From a virus, in the IMG/VR virus record IMGVR_UViG_3300047548_000747, positions 1-31,104 of that record: a stretch of DNA of 31,104 bases; one strand, 5' to 3'. Both the position numbers and the translations under genes were made by a program. The notes beneath the pieces were generated by a model. That model was not told the DNA's origin and did not search any database. It saw nothing but the letters and a program-made list of their open reading frames with translations. Positions 11,848-30,835 of the stretch are shown in pieces (within the stretch, counting starts at the first letter, position 1; every line of letters begins with the position of its first letter).

Positions 11848-14064
11848 TTATGCTTCACCCTTGTGCTTCTGGATGCCGCGGTGGTTCATCGCCTTTGCGG
11901 CAAAGGTCTGCAAAACGTAGTACTCCATGGACAGCTTCTCTTCGTCCATGTACGAGCGAACGAGCGGATTTTCTTGACCCTGCAGGAAGGTAACTTCGAT
12001 GGTGTCGATGGTGCTTGGATCTGCGAAGAGATACCAGGCGAGAGTGCTGTTCGCGTCGAGGATTGGTTCCACAACCGGAATCATCGTGCGGGCTGGGTTG
12101 TACGCCAGCGTATTCACCGAGCTGTTCGGGTCATACGCGGAGTTCACAAGCTGCAAGGCGACCGTTTCCAGTGCCGACGGGACAACGAGGTAGCGCGGCT
12201 GCAGGTTCAGGATGTCGTCGCTTTCTGCACCTTCCGGCGTGTTCTCGCCTCGCATCTGTCGCATCAGATTGGTGAGCAATCCCAACGTCGTCACCGATGG
12301 AGCGCCGGTGCCTGTCGTGAAGTTCTTCCGCTTGCGTGCACCAGACACGTCGGAGAACAGGGCGACACCATCGCTGAGCGTCGGGTTGCTGGTGAGTTGT
12401 GCCCACGCCACGGCGTTCACCGTGCGGGCGGCGGCTGCACCGAGCATAACCGGCGTCCGGGTCAGGGCGTCCATGTCGTCGTTCACCAGCAGTTTGTAAC
12501 TGAAGGAAACGCCGAGCGAACGGGACTCAACGGCGTAGGACTCGCGGGCGTCCGCGAAACTCGCCTTGTTCGGCTCGCTGGTGTCGTTCCAAATTGGAAG
12601 GTTTGGAATGGCGCCCATGCGGAGGCGGTTGATCTGCTTGAAGTCGGCGACACTGGTGCCCTGTCGCATCGGACCACGCCAAGTGCTGGGGGCTTCGGTG
12701 TAGCCGACCATCATGCTTTTGTTGATCGCGTCTTTCGTCAATTCAACAAAACTTCCAGTTGTGTGGTACGGGCCATCTGATCGCGCACCGGGCAAATCTT
12801 TTGTCCCGAACATAGCCGCAATGGCAACCTGTTCGCGAGTCAGCCCGATTGTTCGCACGCCGAGATGCTGAAGCAGCGTTTCAGCCAACTGAAATGGTGT
12901 GGCATGACGAAACTGCTTGTCATCAAACCGCACTTGTTCTTCGCTGAGGTATCGAGCCATCCGCGCGGAATCATTTCCGACGGCAGCGGACACGCTTCGT
13001 CGGGCCAGCGTGTTTGAGATGTCGGACCGCAAACGATCGTAGCCGTTACTGGTGTAGCGAATGGAAACACCGTGAGGAATGGTTGCGGCTGCGTCGGCTC
13101 TGCGTTGATTCAAAAACAGACGAACAGCCCCGATGCTTTGCATGTGACGAATTTTGTCGAACTCTTCGGGCATTCCAGCCAGTTCGCAAAGGTCGCGGGC
13201 CTCAGCCTCAAAAGCAGCCTGAGCGGCGCGTTCGTTTGCCAGTGTGCGGGCGGTGCCCTCAGCCACCAATCGTGCGATGTCATCTGCAGTCAGTGCGGCG
13301 GGTGGCGACTGTCGCTGTTCGGGCGTGGGGGCCGGTGCAGGCGTCGGCGGTGCGGCCATGCGTTCGGGGTTGGCCACAATCCACGCCTGAGCCTGTTCGT
13401 CGGTCAGTTCGGCAGGCATCCCGCGGGACACCAGCAGAGCACGGAGTTGTTCGTTCACTTGAAAATCTCCTTCGGGGGAATGAATGAAACGGCAACGAGC
13501 CGGGTCCAGTCCCCGGAGTTTTGCCTGATCGTCTGCACCAATCGGAGTCAGCGAAACCTCGCGGAGTCGCCACTTCGTCACCACGTTCACCGGGCCTTCG
13601 TACTCGCGGCCACCGATGGTTTTCTTTTTGCCCTTGTCAATGTACGTCCGCTTGAGAACTTCGTAGCCCACGGAAACATCCGTCACGTGTCCATCACGAA
13701 CAGCAGCCAATGCTTCCTCACCCTGTCGGGCTTTGCTAAACATCAGCGTTGCAGTCACGCGGCCATCGCCAACTGTGATATTTCGAGCGCTGCCCAACTG
13801 GTCTGTGACGCTGCTGCGGCGGTGTGAGTCGAGAAACGGGATCTGCCGCGACTTCGGAAATTCAACGCCGCTGGAAAGCAGGATTTCAGGGACATAGTCC
13901 ATCCGCTCCCAGTCAACCATCATCACCGGCTGTTCGGTGCTGATGACAGCCTCAACGGTGCGGCCCTCTTCGTTGAAGGTCTTCGCCCGCAATTCGATCT
14001 CAGCACGAAAACCCGGGCTGATCGCGTTTCCGCTGCCGATTGTTTCGTTATGGCGTTTGGGCAT
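11848..14064 (-). CDS. Prohead protease - scaffold - major capsid fusion
   Basis: A single 738-residue ORF. Residues 1-200 match the HK97-type prohead protease family (S78): the catalytic His lies in FLDSHRR (H81) and the Ser in DVSVGYE (S131). Residues 203-330 are a scaffold-like region, with NEQLRALLVSRGMPAEL, a Pro/Ala linker (about 237-256) and a helical segment. Residues from about 330 to the end form the capsid domain (related in style to Mu gpT-like heads), with conserved-looking GAARTVNAVAWAQL and the C-terminal YYVLQTFAAKAMNHRG. The ATG at 14064 overlaps the portal stop by 17 bases. An internal ribosome binding site and GTG at 13458 would give a 536-residue scaffold-capsid product without protease. 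Confidence 0.85.
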   Translation of the reverse strand: MPKRHNETIGSGNAISPGFRAEIELRAKTFNEEGRTVEAVISTEQPVMMVDWERMDYVPEILLSSGVEFPKSRQIPFLDSHRRSSVTDQLGSARNITVGDGRVTATLMFSKARQGEEALAAVRDGHVTDVSVGYEVLKRTYIDKGKKKTIGGREYEGPVNVVTKWRLREVSLTPIGADDQAKLRGLDPARCRFIHSPEGDFQVNEQLRALLVSRGMPAELTDEQAQAWIVANPERMAAPPTPAPAPTPEQRQSPPAALTADDIARLVAEGTARTLANERAAQAAFEAEARDLCELAGMPEEFDKIRHMQSIGAVRLFLNQRRADAAATIPHGVSIRYTSNGYDRLRSDISNTLARRSVSAAVGNDSARMARYLSEEQVRFDDKQFRHATPFQLAETLLQHLGVRTIGLTREQVAIAAMFGTKDLPGARSDGPYHTTGSFVELTKDAINKSMMVGYTEAPSTWRGPMRQGTSVADFKQINRLRMGAIPNLPIWNDTSEPNKASFADARESYAVESRSLGVSFSYKLLVNDDMDALTRTPVMLGAAAARTVNAVAWAQLTSNPTLSDGVALFSDVSGARKRKNFTTGTGAPSVTTLGLLTNLMRQMRGENTPEGAESDDILNLQPRYLVVPSALETVALQLVNSAYDPNSSVNTLAYNPARTMIPVVEPILDANSTLAWYLFADPSTIDTIEVTFLQGQENPLVRSYMDEEKLSMEYYVLQTFAAKAMNHRGIQKHKGEA
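13456..13472 (-). promoter_or_regulatory. Internal ribosome binding site and GTG start inside the capsid ORF
   Basis: On the minus strand AAGGAG (13472-13467) stands eight bases before an in-frame GTG (13458-13456) encoding residue 203, exactly at the protease/scaffold boundary. The residues after it (NEQLRALL) look like a natural N-terminus. This allows separate, higher-level synthesis of scaffold-capsid from the same gene, analogous to the nested Nu3 start of lambda. Confidence 0.6.
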
Positions 14065-15679
14065 CGTTCGTTCCGGTCGGGGATTCAGCGGCTTCGTTTG
14101 CGTTTCGCGGTGCCGGTAATCCCATTATGTTGGCGAGGATTTCGGGTGGGATACCAAGCCTACCAGCGACTTCGTAAACCTCAGCCAGATTCGCCATCAC
14201 GTCCCGCCAGTTGGTGCCGAGTTTCGCGCATTCCATTTGCAGCGAAGACAGCCCACCCTTGATCCGGTCGTGAGCGGCTTTCGCGTCGTCTACTGGATTG
14301 ATCGAAAGAGCAATCGGGCCGTTCCAACTGGCGACCATGAAGCGGCCGGGCGATGCCATAAATTCCGCGGGGGAAATCAAATCGTCAAAGAAACCGGACA
14401 CCATCGCCGCACGAATCACAGCCTCGTAAATCGGCTGACAGAAGTTGTCGGCAAACCATTGCTGTACGTCGTGCAACTCCGGCCAAATATCGTTGTCTGC
14501 GGATCGCTCTGAACTGAATGAGGAGTTGCGGTAGTCGCCTGTGATGGTCGAAGACTTCACGCCCGGAACCGCAGTTGCCGTTCCTCGCTGAAGGTGCTGG
14601 ACGAACGCCTCCGGGTTCATGTTCGGCTGGTTCGGGCTGTGCAGTTCAAACTTGCCGTCTCGCCCGGTGTTCACCAGCAGGCCAGGCTGCAGTTTCGTGA
14701 CGGTATTGCCATCGCCGTCCGTCAGGTCGTCCGGTGCTGTTGTCGATGCGTTCAAGCCGAATTTCGTTGCCCCGGTGGGCTTCGCGTATGCGCCGACGAC
14801 ACAGGCAGCCAGTGCCGTGGATTTCAGCACGTTGTATTCGAGGTCGGCGGTGTCCTGCGTGCGAGTCAATGCAGCAGAAAACCACGGCACGCCGCGGAGC
14901 TGGTCGATATCCTCCTCAACGTACAGGTGCCCCATCTGGTCTGCTGGGATTCGCACAGCGTTCCCAGACTGGTTGGCCGATGCGTAGGCGGGCTGCAGGC
15001 GAATGTAGTACGCTGTGCGGCGGTTTTCTTCGTCCAGTTCGATGCCGCGGAACAGGCTGGATCCGCCCGGGATTTCGGCGGATGTCACCTCTGTCTCGTC
15101 TGCCAGTCTGCAAGAGTCGATCAATTGCAGCGTGAGCGGAATCGGCAAGTCTCTGCGGATCTGCTCCGCCTGCGTGATTGGTTTCATCCGGAAAAGTGCG
15201 TCGCCGGACAGGATAACGGCCTGCAGGGCCACGCGCTGCAATCCAGCCAGTGTCTGCCCGCCCTGTGCCGGCAATCCACGGGAGTCGAATCCGGCGTTCA
15301 ACCGCTTCCAGAGTTCTTTGCAGCGGTCGCGGAATGCCTCGTTTGGCGTGCCGTCTGCGTTCATTGCCAATGGCTCGGGGTGCATCCCACGGCCGATGAC
15401 TTTGCTTTGCAGTGTCCGGACAATTTTCCGGGCCGATGGGTTGGTGCGGTAAAGCCGCCACGACTGAGCCCGCAGGTTGTCGGTAACAGCCGAACTGGCC
15501 TCATTTTCCTTGTAGACTGACAGCGTGACTTTGTTCGTGCGGGTCGTCTTCGCCTGCGGGTAGATGTTGTTCGGCGCCGCACTCATCGCCATGATCTGCT
15601 GAAGCGTAGCGCGTGCCTGCAGTCTGCGGGCTGCTGCTGCCGGTGCGACGTATCCGATGAAGCGGTCGAGCAGGTTCAC
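14048..15679 (-). CDS. Portal protein (lambda gpB family)
   Basis: A 543-residue portal; lambda gpB is 533. The N-terminal half carries the family features: NNIYPQAKTTR, then RSSAVTDNLRAQSWRLYR-like sequence around 60-75, and the conserved NPSARKIVRTLQSKVIG. In the middle are a strand-rich core (LQLIDSCRLADE) and VEEDIDQLRGVPWFS, followed by the clip/stem helices. It forms the dodecameric DNA gate at the capsid vertex. It starts with GTG at 15679, overlapping the gpW-like stop as GTGA, and precedes the protease-capsid ORF, as in lambda. Confidence 0.9.
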   Translation of the reverse strand: MNLLDRFIGYVAPAAAARRLQARATLQQIMAMSAAPNNIYPQAKTTRTNKVTLSVYKENEASSAVTDNLRAQSWRLYRTNPSARKIVRTLQSKVIGRGMHPEPLAMNADGTPNEAFRDRCKELWKRLNAGFDSRGLPAQGGQTLAGLQRVALQAVILSGDALFRMKPITQAEQIRRDLPIPLTLQLIDSCRLADETEVTSAEIPGGSSLFRGIELDEENRRTAYYIRLQPAYASANQSGNAVRIPADQMGHLYVEEDIDQLRGVPWFSAALTRTQDTADLEYNVLKSTALAACVVGAYAKPTGATKFGLNASTTAPDDLTDGDGNTVTKLQPGLLVNTGRDGKFELHSPNQPNMNPEAFVQHLQRGTATAVPGVKSSTITGDYRNSSFSSERSADNDIWPELHDVQQWFADNFCQPIYEAVIRAAMVSGFFDDLISPAEFMASPGRFMVASWNGPIALSINPVDDAKAAHDRIKGGLSSLQMECAKLGTNWRDVMANLAEVYEVAGRLGIPPEILANIMGLPAPRNANEAAESPTGTNDAQTP

Positions 15680-18984: not shown

Positions 18985-20292
18985 TCACCTCGCTTCCAGT
19001 GTCGCGGTTTTGCCTGTCAGCGTTTCCCAGCGTTTCACTATCACGTCGCAATACTGCGGGCTGATTTCCATGCCGTAGCACTTGCGGCCCAGTTGTTCGG
19101 CGGCGATAAGCGTCGTGCCGGAACCGCAGAAGGGTTCGTAGACGTTGTCGCCCTTTGCGCCGAAATCGCACATAGCCCGCGCCGCCAAATCAACCGGGAA
19201 GGTGGCCTTGTGCTCTTCTTGTTGCTTCGGTCGCGGTATGTTCCACTTTGCCCATCGCGGCTCATTCTCGCCTTGTGTCGTTGTATATTTATTTCCCTTT
19301 GACAGCACAAACACTAGCTCCCAGTTTCTCGACAGAATCCCTCTGGACGCTGTCGGGAATCCAGCCCCTTTATCCCAGCAGATCGTTTCTTTCACCGAAA
19401 GACCGTGGGCTCCCGCGAACATCGTCCGCCCATAGCCCGCCCGGCAATGGGCCGTATACATGACGTTCCAGATGACAGGAGAATCTTCCGACTCCAGGTG
19501 AGAAGAGACAAGAGAAAGCACGTTGTTGCAAAACTCGACCCACTCATCTTCCGTCCTGTCGTCGCACTGGTGGTTGTAGAACTTCTTCGTCTTGCCGCTG
19601 TAATCTGTTTTGTATCCTCCGTCTTTGCTGTTGTATGGCGGCGACGTGAAGCACAGGTCTGCCTTCGCCCCCGCCATCAGCCTCGCCACGTCCTCTGCCT
19701 TCGTCGAATCACCACACAACAGCCGATGCTCCCCGAGAATCCAAAGGTCGCCCGGCTTTGTGATCGGATCGGCAGGAGGTTCAGGAACCTCGTCCTCCGT
19801 CACCTCAACCGGCGTCTCTGCCGGCATGTCATAGCCCATCAGTTTGGACAACTCGTCCGCATCAAACCCCAGCAGCCCGAGGTCATAATCGTCAGCGTGC
19901 AACTCCGCCAACTCCACCTCCAGCATCGCATCGTCCCACCCGCTGTTCAGGGCGATCCGGTTGTCAGCCAGAATGTAAGCCCGCTTCTGTGCGTCGCTGA
20001 GATGCCCGAGACGAATGCACGGCACGGACTGCAGCCCCAGTTTCTGCGCCGCCATCACCCGCCCATGCCCGGCAATGATGCCGTTCTGAGCGTCCACCAA
20101 AACAGGATTCGTGAATCCAAACTCTTGAATGCTGCCGGCAATCTGAGCCACCTGGCTTTCGCTGTGCGTCCTCGCGTTGCGAGCGTAGGGAATCAGGTCG
20201 GCCGTGGCCACCTGCTCGATCTGCACAGGCTGCCCACCGTCCGCCTTCCCGCTGCCCCCTTCCCCCTGTTTTTCTCCGCCTCGCCTCGCCAT
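18985..20292 (-). CDS. ParB-like / DNA methyltransferase fusion
   Basis: A 435-residue protein. Residues about 25-115 form a ParB/Srx-type domain (IPYARNARTHSESQVAQIAGSIQEFG, with IIAGHGRVMAAQ at 72-83). Residues about 180-430 are an SPPY-type DNA methyltransferase: catalytic TSPPYN (216-221) and the SAM motif FCGSGTT (388-394) at the C-terminal end, so the order is catalytic motif first (beta-type). It modifies adenine N6 or cytosine N4 in the phage or host DNA. Such fusions often sit beside phage terminase and may mask restriction sites before packaging. The ATG at 20292 is preferred over an upstream TTG. It follows the 270-base gap and starts the packaging block. Confidence 0.85.
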   Translation of the reverse strand: MARRGGEKQGEGGSGKADGGQPVQIEQVATADLIPYARNARTHSESQVAQIAGSIQEFGFTNPVLVDAQNGIIAGHGRVMAAQKLGLQSVPCIRLGHLSDAQKRAYILADNRIALNSGWDDAMLEVELAELHADDYDLGLLGFDADELSKLMGYDMPAETPVEVTEDEVPEPPADPITKPGDLWILGEHRLLCGDSTKAEDVARLMAGAKADLCFTSPPYNSKDGGYKTDYSGKTKKFYNHQCDDRTEDEWVEFCNNVLSLVSSHLESEDSPVIWNVMYTAHCRAGYGRTMFAGAHGLSVKETICWDKGAGFPTASRGILSRNWELVFVLSKGNKYTTTQGENEPRWAKWNIPRPKQQEEHKATFPVDLAARAMCDFGAKGDNVYEPFCGSGTTLIAAEQLGRKCYGMEISPQYCDVIVKRWETLTGKTATLEAR

Positions 20293-20562
20293 GTAGTATC
20301 CCCGCCTCAAAAAACCTTATCTACAAAAAAAGTACGCTGTACCGAACCCGCGGCACCCCTCCGGAGGCCCGAAAGGACCCGTTTTTCCCCTAAAAACCCT
20401 GTGTTTTTGATGCAAAATCGACGCATTCAACACTTTTCCACTAGGAAAAAGACTAGGTTTGAGCGTTAGGGTAACGTGCTGCCATCACCCTATTAGGGTA
20501 GGTATTTCCCTCTCCCTTAGGGTCCGTCTTGCTGGTTCCCTATCGTTTTGAACATTTGCCTT
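20293..20562. promoter_or_regulatory. 270-base intergenic region with TTAGGGT repeats
   Basis: No gene is seen. TTAGGGT occurs at 20466-20472, 20493-20499 and 20517-20523, the second as half of the inverted repeat ACCCTA/TAGGGT (20487-20492, 20494-20499). ACTAGG occurs at 20440 and 20452. A 6-bp hairpin TTTTCC/GGAAAA lies at 20434-20449. On the minus strand a 4-bp stem followed by T7 (around 20324-20340) could act as a weak terminator. Since this gap separates two co-directional blocks, it is the likely site of a promoter for the packaging and head genes, controlled through the TAGG sites. Confidence 0.5.
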
Positions 20563-22201: not shown

Positions 22202-23458
22202 TTATCCAAAAGCGAATTCAATCGTCGGGAAGAACCATGCTGACCACCGCCAGTTCTCTGCGTTTATTCCAGTCACCGTGAAAAATGGACTCGTCCCACT
22301 GATTGTCAAATCTGTGCTTGCGTTGTCCTCGTAGTCTGTCCCGATGATTTGCGACTCAACAAGCGTGATAGTGCCACTCACGTTTTTGAATATCAATCGG
22401 CGAGTGTAGACGGCTAATGCTGATCCGTCGGATTTGCTTCCGGAAACCTGCAGAATACCCGTCAAAATTGTGTTCGATCGAGTGGTGAAGGCTGGCGAGC
22501 CAAACAGATTTCGTAGCTGTAATGCGGTAGGCGTGTTGTTTGTAGTTGATGCCGAAAGAAAAAAGCCGCCCACTCGAACATCAAAAGCGCTATGCCGAAA
22601 ACCAAACGTTAATTCATTTTGGCGGCTTGCAGTGGCTACTGCACCAATTGCAATCCCGCAATGAGCAGTAACTATCGTGTTTACTGTACCAATTGCCGTG
22701 GCGTTGCTTACAGTAACAGACCCAGATTCGGGGCAAATGCACAGACTACCTATTCCCGTTACGCTCGATGCGCCAATCGCAATTGATGACCGCTCAGTAA
22801 CGCTAGCCGTACCAATTGCAATTGATCCTCGCGATCCCTCTGCTCCATTCGCAGAGGCATTCCCAATCGCAATGACATTGTTTCCGCCAGTGGCTGAAGC
22901 ACCTGGCCCAATTGCTATGCAGCCCGTGTTGTTTGTTCGCGAATTGACGCCAATGACAATGCTATTATCGCCCGCTGCAACTTGATTGGCGTTTGTGCGA
23001 GTGGTCTGAAGATCAATTGCGTTTGCACCCCTAGCATTGCCGCCTGCGGTCGTACCATCTGGCACTGCCAGCGAAAACGCACCCGATCCCTTCGGCACGA
23101 TCGACACCGAAACATTCGTGCTGCTACCAGTCGCCTGCAGACTCAGGTGGTTGACTGTGGCGTTTGGCGATGCCGTGTAGATGTCCGGAATGATCCATCC
23201 GCTGCCCTGCAGTGTTGCTCCGCCTGCGCCGTCTGCCCGCAGAACTGCGTTGTCTGTCGAGCCTGCGGAACCACCAATCCCGCCCGATGGTGCCGCAAAC
23301 GCCACCGATCCATCACCCTGCACCGTCAGCACGTCGCCAGACGATGCCGTGGCGAAACTGATCGTTTGGCAGGCTGCAGCCGCATTGGTGTTGTTCCCGA
23401 GCAGGCTGCGGGCTGCAACGTCGACAATCTGCGCAGGGATTACGGCGGTCTGGCCCAT
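22202..23458 (-). CDS. Tail fibre with YadA/Hep-Hag head repeats
   Basis: A 418-residue, Gly/Ala/Ser/Thr-rich fibre. Residues about 165-275 contain the repeats (IAIGPGASATGG, VIAIGNASANGA, SIAIGTASVTE, IAIGASSV) of the trimeric autotransporter head (left-handed beta roll). The N-terminal part has a phage-fibre layout (GGSAGSTDNAVLRADG), and the C-terminal 140 residues are a distinct receptor-facing domain (VRVGGFFLSAS onward). It would trimerise at the tail end and bind the host surface. The ATG at 23458 overlaps the previous stop by one base (TAATG). It is the largest host-contact protein here. Confidence 0.85.
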   Translation of the reverse strand: MGQTAVIPAQIVDVAARSLLGNNTNAAAACQTISFATASSGDVLTVQGDGSVAFAAPSGGIGGSAGSTDNAVLRADGAGGATLQGSGWIIPDIYTASPNATVNHLSLQATGSSTNVSVSIVPKGSGAFSLAVPDGTTAGGNARGANAIDLQTTRTNANQVAAGDNSIVIGVNSRTNNTGCIAIGPGASATGGNNVIAIGNASANGAEGSRGSIAIGTASVTERSSIAIGASSVTGIGSLCICPESGSVTVSNATAIGTVNTIVTAHCGIAIGAVATASRQNELTFGFRHSAFDVRVGGFFLSASTTNNTPTALQLRNLFGSPAFTTRSNTILTGILQVSGSKSDGSALAVYTRRLIFKNVSGTITLVESQIIGTDYEDNASTDLTISGTSPFFTVTGINAENWRWSAWFFPTIEFAFG

Positions 23459-24885: not shown

Positions 24886-25179
24886 TTATTTGTCCGGTGC
24901 TGCAGTATTTCCCGGACCATTGGTTTCCGATCGAGTGCGGCCACTGCCAGACTCAAGGACAACACGAGCAGCATTCGCTTCGCGAAACTGCATTCCCTGA
25001 GCATATTGCATCTCAAGGACCTTCTCGAAGGTGGTCGCGTTCGTGCTGTGACGATCGCGGTCAGCCTTCAATCGCTGCATAAAGAAATCATCGGTTTCTG
25101 CCGCTGACATTTTGCCATCTCCTTTTTTGCCCGGAATTGTAATAACGCCATCACCGGGAATAGGCGTTCCGGTGCTCAC
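24886..25179 (-). CDS. Small hydrophilic protein after the protease
   Basis: A 97-residue charged protein with a helical middle (FFMQRLKADRDRHSTNATTFEKVLEMQYAQGMQF) and a Ser/Gly/Arg tail. The start is GTG at 25179 with GGAGG six bases upstream, overlapping the protease stop (GTGA); an internal ATG at 25110 with AAGGAG eight bases before it is an alternative. No family is seen. Confidence 0.55.
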   Translation of the reverse strand: MSTGTPIPGDGVITIPGKKGDGKMSAAETDDFFMQRLKADRDRHSTNATTFEKVLEMQYAQGMQFREANAARVVLESGSGRTRSETNGPGNTAAPDK

Positions 25180-26180
25180 TTTGAGCCTCCGAGTGTCTCG
25201 ACGTCAAGAATGATAGGCTGGCCGGGCGCGTATGTCTCGCGGTCGATCTCTCGCCCATCACGTGCGAGGATAATCGTGATCGGTAGACACTGCCCGTCGC
25301 GGCCTTTGAGCTGGTTGATATTTTGCTGCATCCATGCGCTCACGGCCGCCTGAATCTGCGAGTCCGTCGGGCGAACGATCTGCGGAGCGGGCGGACTGGC
25401 TGACTGCTGCTGCGGTACTGACGGTCTCGTGACGATGCCGACGGAGTCAATTGGCGGAGTGACACCAACCACGCGGGGTGGTCCTGTCGGGATGCCGATG
25501 AATTGCGGCTGCTGGATCTGCGGACGGAGCCAGATGGAGCAGCCATTTGGTCCGCATTGCTGCGAGTAGTATTGTGTGAGATGCAGTCGTATCGCGTCTG
25601 CATCTGTCACCACCGTGCGAGCGTTGGTCGCCGCGTATTGGCTGCGTGATGTCGGCGTGCTGCCGGATGTTTCGACGCCCGTAACCAGCCCGACAGCGTA
25701 GCCATCATCGGTGACCACTGGGGCGCCGGAGTCGCCTGAGCACGAATGCAAACCACCGTCGCCGATCATGAACTGACTGCCCACCATTTCGCCGGTCCAG
25801 CCCGTAGTGGGGCGGCCGTGGTATTTCGGACCAAACCCGAGCGCCTCAACACGGACGCGCTGCGTTGCCTGCTGCAGTGCGAATTCACCGCCGTAGGGCA
25901 TGGGGGACTCGAAACAGGCCACGTCGTGCCGCGGATGAATCCGCAGGTTTTCGACAGCGTATCGCTGGCCTCCTTTGATCACCGAGCCGCGTTCGGCGCG
26001 GTCGAAATTGTGGGCTGCTGTGACGATCAGGCACCGGCCGCTTTCTGTGGTGCCGACAACGAAGCATGTGCCGTAGCCTGTGTATTGATTGCCTTGCGTC
26101 GTTTTCCCCTGCACTATCAATTGCATGGCTTCGGCGTTTGCACTGCAGCACAGCAGGAGCCAGATTATCAGTGTTCTCAT
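25176..26180 (-). CDS. Exported trypsin-like serine protease
   Basis: A 334-residue protein. Residues 1-18 are a typical signal peptide (charged start, TLIIWLLLCC core, then ANAEA), so it crosses the membrane. The protease domain (about 20-200) carries all three catalytic elements: TAAHN (H57), RHDVACFE (D86) and CSGDSGAP (S151), in chymotrypsin order. A Pro/Gln/Arg-rich linker (about 220-270) follows, then a C-terminal domain with LPITIILARDGREI. The last ten codons of the nuclease gene are not shared; the start ATG at 26180 overlaps that gene's stop. Exported proteases are unusual in phages and might serve surface processing or lysis. Confidence 0.8.
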   Translation of the reverse strand: MRTLIIWLLLCCSANAEAMQLIVQGKTTQGNQYTGYGTCFVVGTTESGRCLIVTAAHNFDRAERGSVIKGGQRYAVENLRIHPRHDVACFESPMPYGGEFALQQATQRVRVEALGFGPKYHGRPTTGWTGEMVGSQFMIGDGGLHSCSGDSGAPVVTDDGYAVGLVTGVETSGSTPTSRSQYAATNARTVVTDADAIRLHLTQYYSQQCGPNGCSIWLRPQIQQPQFIGIPTGPPRVVGVTPPIDSVGIVTRPSVPQQQSASPPAPQIVRPTDSQIQAAVSAWMQQNINQLKGRDGQCLPITIILARDGREIDRETYAPGQPIILDVETLGGSK

Positions 26181-27973: not shown

Positions 27974-30775
27974 TCAAAACGGCTTGAAGTCTGCCAACTC
28001 CGCCCCGTCTGCCTGTTTTGCCTTTTCCTCCTCCTCCGGCTGGTGGGAGAACGGCTTGAATTCGATGCGGGGAACGATCGTCCACCTGTTGACGGATTTG
28101 CCCGCTCGGATCAATTTCCCTGTCACGCCTGGGATGCGGCGGAGGATGATGTCGATGCGTTTGCCCCGCCACTCGTTGGGCAACAGGTAGCGAAGGACTG
28201 CCGATTTCTGGATCATGACCACTTCCGGCGTCACCTGCAGCCCACAGGCCAGCAGGGCGTCTGATGCTTCGCCGTCGGAGAATGCGGATTCGATGAGCGA
28301 AGAGACCGGAGCGGTGCGCCCGCCCGGCAGCCTCACCTGAGCGGTGGCGATAGCCTCAATCAACTCCGCCGAGTCGCTCTGCACCTGGTCTGTTTCCGGG
28401 ATGGCCCCCAGAGCCGCTACGAAGAGCGCCAACGCGTCGGAGTCAGGCATCCCGACGGATGTAGCGTACATTGCCACTGGAACCGCGTAGGACTCGCACA
28501 CGCGGCCGTGGACGTTTTGGGGCCGGTTGTCCATCAGAAACTCAACAAGGCGTCTGGCGGGCCTCACAGACAACAAGGCGACGGCCATCAATTTCTGCCC
28601 CAGCGCGGCGAGGTCTTCGTAGCTGGGTAATTCGATTTTCCCGGAACGGCTCAATTCGCAAACAATGAAACGGCTCGTGTCCGCCTCGCCCACCAGCCCG
28701 GACTCGATCGCCGCACACCAGAATATGTGCTGCAGCCGGAAGGCAATATGCGAGTGCTGAGATGCGGTCCCGCGGAATGACTCGTCCCCGCGGCCGGAGG
28801 CGCGAACCATTTCGAGAATGCGTGGGCGGTCGGCCGCCTTCTCCAGCTCGTCGCAGATCGCAATTCGTCCCGACGCCCCGATGTACTGGCGTATCCCAGC
28901 CGCGGAGGAGTTGCTGCTCATTTTGCAGAGTCGGCCAAACACCTGAGCCAATGCCTTCAGCAGCGTCGTTTTGCCCGAATACGCCTGGCCGATCAGAAAC
29001 ACCTGCGGGCGCCATTTCCACAGCGTTTGCGTCCACGTGGCGAGAACCAGACCTGTGAGCACCTCCGGCCATGCGTGGGATGCGTGCCCGTAATTGAACT
29101 TGTTAAACACGTTGTGCAGCTGGAACACCTCGTCCACATACAACCGCCCCGGCTCCGCGTTGACGCTCCCGATTGCCGCTTGTGTCCGCCGCAAATCGAT
29201 CCAGTTGCAGCGGTCGCCTACGTCGAAGGCTTCGCCGCAGAATACGGGGTTGCTGCTCACCTGAAGCATGGGCGTTCCGTTGAGGATGCCGAGTCGTTTG
29301 CTGGTGCACACCACAAGGCTGCCGTGATGCTCCCAGATGCCGACCCCGCGTTTCTCGTCCTCCGTCGTGTTGTTGCTGGCCACCGCGGCAATGGCGGTCC
29401 GGATCTCCGTCAGGGCGTAGTCCCCAGCGTCCGCTGACGTGCCGCGGACGTGGCGAATGACTTTGTGGCCACCCGCTTGGATCAACGCCTCGTACTTCAG
29501 AGCCCCAACGTCCCTGATCGTCGTGAACCTCTGCGTGCATTCACTGAAGATCTCCACCGCCCCGCCGTCTTGCTGGGATACGTGGGTGATGCCACATTTT
29601 GCCAGCACAGCCTGATAATACCGCAGCCAGTCGGGCGAGTTCTCCGGGTCGTCGTCTTCTGCCTCCGGCGTTTCCGCTGCCGGCTGGGATACCGGAAGCG
29701 GCGCGGGCTGGTGCGGCTGCCGAACGGGTGGGGTGTACTTGTCGTCGCGAAGGAGTCGCCCACGTTCGCCAGCGACTTTGTCGGCGTCCTCCAATTTGTG
29801 CAGCAGTTCCGCCGTGGTCCATGGTGGTTCACATTTCTGGTTCCAAGTCTCCAGCAGTTCGAGAGCGTCGGGGACCGGCAGCCCGAAGTCGAGAACGAGC
29901 ACGCACGCTGCGTGGAATGTCTTGTCATGCCCGGACTCGCCACTGACTGCCGGCGGTACTTTCTCCAGATATTTCGCCGCACGATCCACCACCGACTTCC
30001 GCGGCCGCGGTCGTTTCTCCTGTTTCGCCGCCGTAGCGTCCGCTGGCGCGTCTGCCCCTAATGCCTGAATCTTCTGCCACGGAACCTGCCGGATCTCGTC
30101 AGGGACGCGGTGGAGCGTTGCCACGCGGTGCGGGCGGTCTGGCGTGCTGTCGCCCTTGCGTGCCACCGTGCCGTACAGTTTGCAGACCCGAGCGGCATTG
30201 AAGACTTTGGTGTCGATCGTCACCGCCGCCGTGCTGAATTTCGCCGCCAACGCCCGCAATGCGTTGCGGATTGTGCCCTTCGTTTCCTCATCGTTCTCCG
30301 CGTCAGTCATCCAGTGAAGGTGCCACCCGTTGCCGCTGCAGCACACCACCGGGGCGGGCCACCCCTGAGACACTAAATACTTCGCGACTTCCGCGGCCGT
30401 CAGTTGGGCCGCTTTCCATTCGCTTTCGGACGACGATATTCCCGCGGGCCGGACTGGATCGCAGTCGACAAAAAACCACCGCCGCCGGATCACGTCTGCA
30501 TCGTTCACGGTTGCGTCGATGCGTTCGGCGAAGCGGTTGAGCGCCCGCGCCGTCACCGCCGCGTTGAATGGGTTGAGAACGAAGTAGATGCCGCTGTTCC
30601 GCGGATGGTTTGCGTATTGCCCGACGGCACTCGCCGCTTGTTCGTAGTTCGTCCAATATCCTGCATCGGTGCGGCTCTTGCTGCCGAAGGCGTTCAACAC
30701 CCGGATCTCCACAGCCTCACCGCCGCCAAACACCTGCAGCGTTCTCAATACCGTTTCCCTGTTGTACGTCAACAC
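27974..30775 (-). CDS. Primase-helicase (PrimPol plus AAA/SF3-type helicase)
   Basis: A 933-residue protein. The N-terminal half is PrimPol-like: RRWFFVDCDPVRPAG with the DxD pair (about 104-106), and SGNGWHLHW (about 147-155), the His of the nucleotide site. A linker rich in Pro/Gln/Glu (about 345-385) follows. The helicase has Walker A GQAYSGKT (about 596-603) and Walker B AICDE (about 639-643). It would prime and unwind phage DNA. I chose the GTG at 30775 (AGGAG seven bases ahead), because the longer frame from 30826 begins inside a terminator hairpin. It is the replication protein of this segment. Confidence 0.85.
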   Translation of the reverse strand: MLTYNRETVLRTLQVFGGGEAVEIRVLNAFGSKSRTDAGYWTNYEQAASAVGQYANHPRNSGIYFVLNPFNAAVTARALNRFAERIDATVNDADVIRRRWFFVDCDPVRPAGISSSESEWKAAQLTAAEVAKYLVSQGWPAPVVCCSGNGWHLHWMTDAENDEETKGTIRNALRALAAKFSTAAVTIDTKVFNAARVCKLYGTVARKGDSTPDRPHRVATLHRVPDEIRQVPWQKIQALGADAPADATAAKQEKRPRPRKSVVDRAAKYLEKVPPAVSGESGHDKTFHAACVLVLDFGLPVPDALELLETWNQKCEPPWTTAELLHKLEDADKVAGERGRLLRDDKYTPPVRQPHQPAPLPVSQPAAETPEAEDDDPENSPDWLRYYQAVLAKCGITHVSQQDGGAVEIFSECTQRFTTIRDVGALKYEALIQAGGHKVIRHVRGTSADAGDYALTEIRTAIAAVASNNTTEDEKRGVGIWEHHGSLVVCTSKRLGILNGTPMLQVSSNPVFCGEAFDVGDRCNWIDLRRTQAAIGSVNAEPGRLYVDEVFQLHNVFNKFNYGHASHAWPEVLTGLVLATWTQTLWKWRPQVFLIGQAYSGKTTLLKALAQVFGRLCKMSSNSSAAGIRQYIGASGRIAICDELEKAADRPRILEMVRASGRGDESFRGTASQHSHIAFRLQHIFWCAAIESGLVGEADTSRFIVCELSRSGKIELPSYEDLAALGQKLMAVALLSVRPARRLVEFLMDNRPQNVHGRVCESYAVPVAMYATSVGMPDSDALALFVAALGAIPETDQVQSDSAELIEAIATAQVRLPGGRTAPVSSLIESAFSDGEASDALLACGLQVTPEVVMIQKSAVLRYLLPNEWRGKRIDIILRRIPGVTGKLIRAGKSVNRWTIVPRIEFKPFSHQPEEEEKAKQADGAELADFKPF

Positions 30776-30782
30776 GTCGTAT

Positions 30783-30787
30783 CTCCT
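30783..30787 (-). promoter_or_regulatory. Primase ribosome binding site
   Basis: AGGAG on the minus strand, seven bases before the GTG at 30775. It fixes the start codon and lies only 8 bases after the T-run of the terminator. Confidence 0.7.
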
Positions 30788-30795
30788 GAGTCGAC

Positions 30796-30835
30796 AAAAA
30801 AACCCCGGCGCGTGGTGGTTCGTCACGCGCCGGGG
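30796..30835 (-). terminator. Strong intrinsic terminator in the primase leader
   Basis: On the minus strand, CCCCGGCGCGTG (30835-30824) and CACGCGCCGGGG (30814-30803) form a perfect 12-bp stem with a 9-base loop, followed by seven T (30802-30796). The primase ribosome binding site follows after 8 bases, so the terminator stops transcripts from the right just before the primase start. Confidence 0.85.

Follow-up and report, generated by a model that had tools for sequence, protein, structure and literature searches.

An in-frame internal start at the protease/scaffold boundary of phage protease-major capsid protein fusion genes points to nested genes

In phage HK97, the gene for protease gp4 is followed by a separate gene for the major capsid protein (MCP), gp5, which carries an N-terminal scaffold (delta) domain. 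In phage lambda, the short form Nu3 is nested in protease gene C, and the C-terminal part is common to both products; Nu3 is scaffold alone, and the MCP (E) is encoded separately. Protease I and scaffold Z of Mu and gene 27 of PaMx73 likewise have an in-frame internal Shine-Dalgarno (SD) start where the protease domain ends, and in PaMx73 this start falls on a Val codon; the short product is only a scaffold and the MCP is separate (PMC4378225). In herpesviruses, which infect eukaryotes, UL26.5 begins in the middle of UL26, the short product being the abundant scaffold and the long one the protease carrier, but UL26.5 has its own gene start instead of a bacterial ribosome binding site and the MCP is again separate (PMC12474303).

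A further group of phages has these functions joined. Protease, scaffold and MCP are reported to be encoded by a single gene in MD8-like Pseudomonas phages (PMC8508860), and fused capsid-protease genes have been noted in Rhodobacter (PMC8601537) and Arthrobacter (PMC5513430) phages; they have also been noted in Microbacterium phages (PMC9671004). The available parts of the MD8, Rhodobacter and Arthrobacter accounts make no mention of an internal start, and we found no paper on an internal start in protease/MCP fusions in the open-licence literature.

The window analyzed here, a 31,104-nucleotide stretch of viral DNA (IMG/VR record IMGVR_UViG_3300047548_000747, positions 1 to 31,104), contains a fusion gene of this kind. 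An earlier note on this DNA had described, without naming the strand, an uninterrupted 738-codon frame with an S78-type protease, a Pro/Ala linker and a capsid domain. The frame is a single ORF on the minus strand that runs from an ATG with no internal stop (Table 1), and a portal gene (PF05136) and a GpA-type terminase gene lie upstream on the same strand. The elements that the note had listed were all present: H81 and S131 of the protease were invariant in 24 aligned homologs, the linker was found at residues 237-257, and the C-terminal part matched PF25209 with 141 bits, above the curated cut-off of 27. The matched frame was open in the 60 close IMG/VR relatives except for two frameshifted contigs, L052 and L053, and the capsid domain was conserved through to the C terminus in aligned homologs.

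The assignments to NF045541, PHROG 4523 and Pfam family Phage_capsid_4 identify the gene as a fusion of a known kind. NF045541 (prohead protease/MCP fusion) matched residues 30-736 at E = 3.4e-128, with a score of 429 bits that is below the curated cut-off of 525; the match covered positions 1-633 of the 634 in the profile and was thus full length, with protease and MCP in a single ORF. PHROG 4523 ("major head and protease protein") matched at E = 1e-124. Matches of the protease domain alone fell below the curated cut-offs, at E = 3e-7 for TIGR01543 (30.6 bits; cut-off, 59) and E = 0.003 for PF04586 (18 bits; cut-off, 21). The AlphaFold2 (AF2) model of this domain had a pLDDT of 72, and T4 gp21 and herpes proteases were among its top Foldseek matches, all of them with E > 0.1. 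For the ClpP-type relative, only ClpP proteases appeared among the 60 matches listed. A sequence search of the PDB found no family member with a solved structure, and the full-length AF2 model was unusable (pLDDT 57). The scaffold-like region is composed of a conserved N-terminal block, the Pro/Ala linker and long helices, which the AF2 model places at residues 205-213, 222-231, 260-295 and 311-327.

Table 1. Features of the protease-scaffold-MCP gene, in window coordinates
Feature	Position	Strand	Basis or remark
Full-length ORF, protease - scaffold - MCP, 738 aa	11848..14064	-	NF045541 and PHROG 4523 matches
S78/HK97-type prohead protease domain, residues ~26-187	13504..13989	-	Invariant H81/S131, TIGR01543, PF04586, AF2
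Catalytic H81 codon	13824-13822	-	
Catalytic S131 codon	13674-13672	-	
Scaffold-like region, residues 203-327	13084..13458	-	Sits between protease and MCP core, cf. HK97 delta domain
Pro/Ala linker inside scaffold-like region	13294-13356	-	
HK97-type capsid core (Phage_capsid_4), residues 424-733	11866..12795	-	PF25209, E = 8.7e-41
Full-length start ATG, weak SD	14062..14064	-	Lies in the portal gene (14048-15679), at its 3' end
Internal SD AAGGAG	13467..13472	-	Pairing energy with anti-SD (dG), -8.8 kcal/mol
Internal start codon GTG, residue 203	13456..13458	-	ATG/GTG throughout 80 homologs; aligns to M1 of the L064 MCP
Proposed nested gene, scaffold-MCP, 536 aa	11848..13458	-	Proposed from homolog conservation and L064

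The order of protease, scaffold and HK97-fold MCP is that of HK97 gp4/gp5 and also that of the NF045541/NF045540 fusions and MD8 gp5-like genes (PMC8508860). With Mu and PaMx73 the window shares an in-frame internal ribosome binding site and start at the end of the protease domain, in the window as in PaMx73 at a Val codon. It differs from them in that there is no scaffold-only short product with a separate MCP; the frame runs through the capsid domain as far as the stop.

The in-frame GTG of residue 203 is preceded by AAGGAG at exactly the eight-base spacing given in the earlier note (8 nt, ATTTTCAA; minus-strand sequence around the site, GAAGGAGATTTTCAAGTGAACGAA, with AAGGAG followed by GTG as codon 203). 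The free energy of pairing of this AAGGAG with the anti-SD was -8.8 kcal/mol, as opposed to -3.5 kcal/mol for the full-length start, and by SD strength the site ranked second among the 41 internal ATG/GTG codons of the ORF. On the two strands of the window together, there are just four cases of AAGGAG with an RTG 5-9 nt after it. Synonymous codon shuffling produced AAGGAG at the GTG203 site in 341 of 3,000 trials (11%). Taken by itself, the window makes the site only suggestive and not decisive; by comparison with its homologs, it is far beyond chance. GTG162, which had a slightly higher score when only the window was considered, falls within the protease domain, and in-frame ATGs of its region showed no similar SD enrichment across the family (only ATGs were counted). 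The codon-shuffle null proved a weak test of the SD, reaching the 5% level in 8 of 64 family representatives, since the residues that precede the start are rich in Glu, Lys and Gln, whose codons are themselves rich in purines.

We compared 80 ORFs of the subfamily (60 IMG/VR relatives, later extended; 38 sequences after dereplication). A scan of genome contigs yielded only three relatives. In the alignment of homologs for which the earlier note had called, codon 203 was ATG (74 ORFs) or GTG (6 ORFs) throughout, with an SD in 74%. Residue 203 is Val, encoded by GTG, within the clade of the window and Met outside it. Only five of the 738 columns (203, 216, 451, 601 and 604) had ATG/GTG in at least 97% of the dereplicated sequences; the frequency of an upstream SD was 0.74 at column 203 as opposed to 0.00 at each of the other four. 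Column 203 was also the sole near-invariant column that swapped Met and Val yet kept a start codon. Positions -14 to -8 are rich in purines even though the linker before codon 203 varies in length and sequence; the block that follows the codon (NEELRALLVSRGM) is conserved. Contig L180 has a frameshift within the linker and L052 one within the capsid part; L053 looked like a split gene but has an out-of-frame deletion spanning the boundary. L053 is near-identical to L019, and its deletion (L053:4300-4330), which takes out exactly the boundary, the SD and the start codon, is a mutant or an assembly error.

In two cases the protease and the MCP were found as two genes. On contig L064, from an Anaerolineales MAG, the protease ORF stops before the MCP gene, whose ATG is preceded by AGAGGAGG and whose protein begins MHPKLRAFLEANGLRAGATEQEA. 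The first 23 residues of this MCP align from M1 to V203-NEQLRALLVSRGMPAELTDEQA, with a score matched by 0 of 1,000 shuffles. Thus, the internal start is homologous to a true gene start. The second case is Faecalibacterium phage FP_Epona.

We then considered the whole fusion family. Altogether, 312 complete fused ORFs, represented at 60% identity by 64 sequences with S78- and ClpP-type proteases, were obtained from scans seeded by members from Rhodobacter, a coliphage (ClpP-type protease), Bordetella and deltaproteobacteria. With a fixed SD motif (GGAG, GAGG or AGGA, 5-12 nt upstream), an SD preceded 58 of the 142 in-frame ATGs of the boundary window and 33 of the 755 downstream (Fisher p = 6e-29). 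A boundary ATG with an SD was found in 53 of the 64 representatives, and in 55 with GTG counted; in downstream windows of equal size, ATGs with an SD (ATG only) were found in 8, 6 and 4 of 64. Among cultured relatives, the boundary ATG is codon 224 in Pseudomonas phage JBD68 and codon 211 in coliphage mEp213. Since S78-like and ClpP-like fusions both show the pattern, the internal site follows the scaffold-MCP part and not the protease. Fusions lacking the internal ribosome binding site, which the earlier note had held to count against its proposal, were limited to a few homologs, the strict motif being missing in 9 of the 64. Two of these, L287 and L288, still have the boundary ATG; its leader is A/T-rich like the leaders of their other gene starts, and an SD preceded 0 of 6 and 0 of 5 mechanically called genes at the two loci. 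L287, L288 and a third locus, L289, carry the capsid family among called genes with A/T-rich leaders and no SD.

Four actinophage fusions, chosen only as fusions named in papers, show on inspection no sequence relationship to the window: RRH1, Anseraureola (cluster EE), Inspire2 (AN) and ScienceWizSam (AU). In each, the best internal SD-start of the ORF was at the protease/scaffold boundary, at codon 274, 166, 160 and 241, respectively, and ranked first among 22, 29, 19 and 20 internal starts. Four first ranks would arise at random about 4 times in a million (the product of the four). The nested arrangement appears, by sequence, to hold across the protease/MCP "fusion" family and to occur in unrelated fusions as well.

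The internal initiation first suggested from the window is strongly supported by these comparisons: start and SD are conserved, the MCP of L064 starts at the same residue, and independent fusions have the same site. We consider it very probable that the ORF represents in-frame nested genes, giving a minority of protease-scaffold-MCP and a majority of scaffold-MCP, with the proteases co-assembled into the shell before they cleave. The weak ATG at 14064 would yield the minority 738-aa protein, and the strong SD-GTG at 13458 the majority 536-aa protein. Because the scaffold and capsid domains are common to both, the two forms would be able to co-assemble, and the procapsid would thereby receive proteases in limited number. 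As suggested by HK97-type proteases, the protease would then cleave the scaffold and linker, free or destroy itself, and mature the shell; the self-cleavage of the full-length fusion proposed earlier is plausible by this analogy. The accompanying idea, that internal initiation provides few proteases and many capsid subunits, fits the SD strengths in the window and the copy numbers of HK97, whose prohead contains 415 MCP and ~60 protease molecules; the D3 prohead contains ~90 proteases (PMC12749128). An HK97- or D3-like ratio of protease to MCP could not be attained by one ORF without internal initiation. In mEp213, Pd_22F and RcKemmy, the SD of the full-length start equals or exceeds the internal SD, so that a low share of protease may not apply to all of these phages; the ratio could be governed by coupling or differ among relatives.

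Could the conserved site be a by-product of the protein sequence? Met/Val203 might be kept for protein reasons, with an SD-like sequence arising from the acidic, purine-coded linker; the six residues before the start are indeed enriched in Glu, Lys and Gln, and an SD often reappears at this site when codons are shuffled. The other invariant Mets lack an SD, however, and in the boundary window an SD precedes only 10.8% of non-ATG codons as opposed to 41% of ATGs (p = 1e-19). The split homolog L064, moreover, starts at exactly this residue. On these sequence comparisons the by-product explanation is largely refuted, and we regard it as very improbable. Alternatively, only the full-length fusion may be made, with proteolysis near residue 200 parting protease and MCP and the internal start left over from formerly separate genes. 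Merging of neighboring genes, such as those of L064 and FP_Epona, would leave such a relic, and prohead proteases do cleave MCP. Relics decay, yet the start and its SD persist in members that are less than 60% identical; the start survives the exchange of ATG and GTG and is seen in unrelated fusions, and the 1:1 ratio of protease to MCP would be unlike those of the HK97 and D3 proheads. A relic is accordingly improbable, if a little less so than a by-product.

An explanation that accepts use of the internal start fares somewhat better while remaining unlikely: the full-length protein would not be a shell subunit but would serve as a protease that associates with the scaffold, in the manner of lambda C and Nu3. 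It matches the nested protease/scaffold genes of Mu and lambda. Against it, the full-length protein has the whole conserved capsid domain in the same frame. We prefer the nested reading, in which the long form is itself a shell subunit. Its extension to phage "capsid-protease fusion" genes as a rule, of convergent origin, is slightly favored: they would be nested, a minority of MCP subunits would carry the protease into the shell, and the reason for keeping the fusion would be that it both delivers the protease and counts it.

Compared with the known nested genes, what would be new here is a nested product that extends through the capsid protein, and that does so across annotated fusion families; the arrangement seems common to many phages annotated only as encoding a "fusion protein." If the internal start is used, many single-fusion annotations in phages and prophages overlook the chief structural product, every such annotation predicts the wrong N terminus for the capsid protein precursor, and the phages have a simple mechanism for setting the protease dose of the procapsid.

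Several other minus-strand genes of the window were noted. The 950-aa protein encoded at 27974-30826 had no Pfam match and, judged by eye only, is possibly a primase/helicase. A trypsin-like serine protease of 334 aa that appears to have a signal peptide (Trypsin_2, PF13365, E = 6e-9) is encoded at 25176-26180, among the late phage genes. The 418-aa protein at 22202-23458 has YadA-head-like repeats with a weak match to PF05658 and is probably a trimeric tail fiber or adhesin. A DNA methyltransferase (N6_N4_Mtase) with an N-terminal ParB_N domain and a TTG start is found at 18985-20310, and the 505-aa protein at 1364-2881 contains a phosphoribosyltransferase domain (PF00156) in its middle part.
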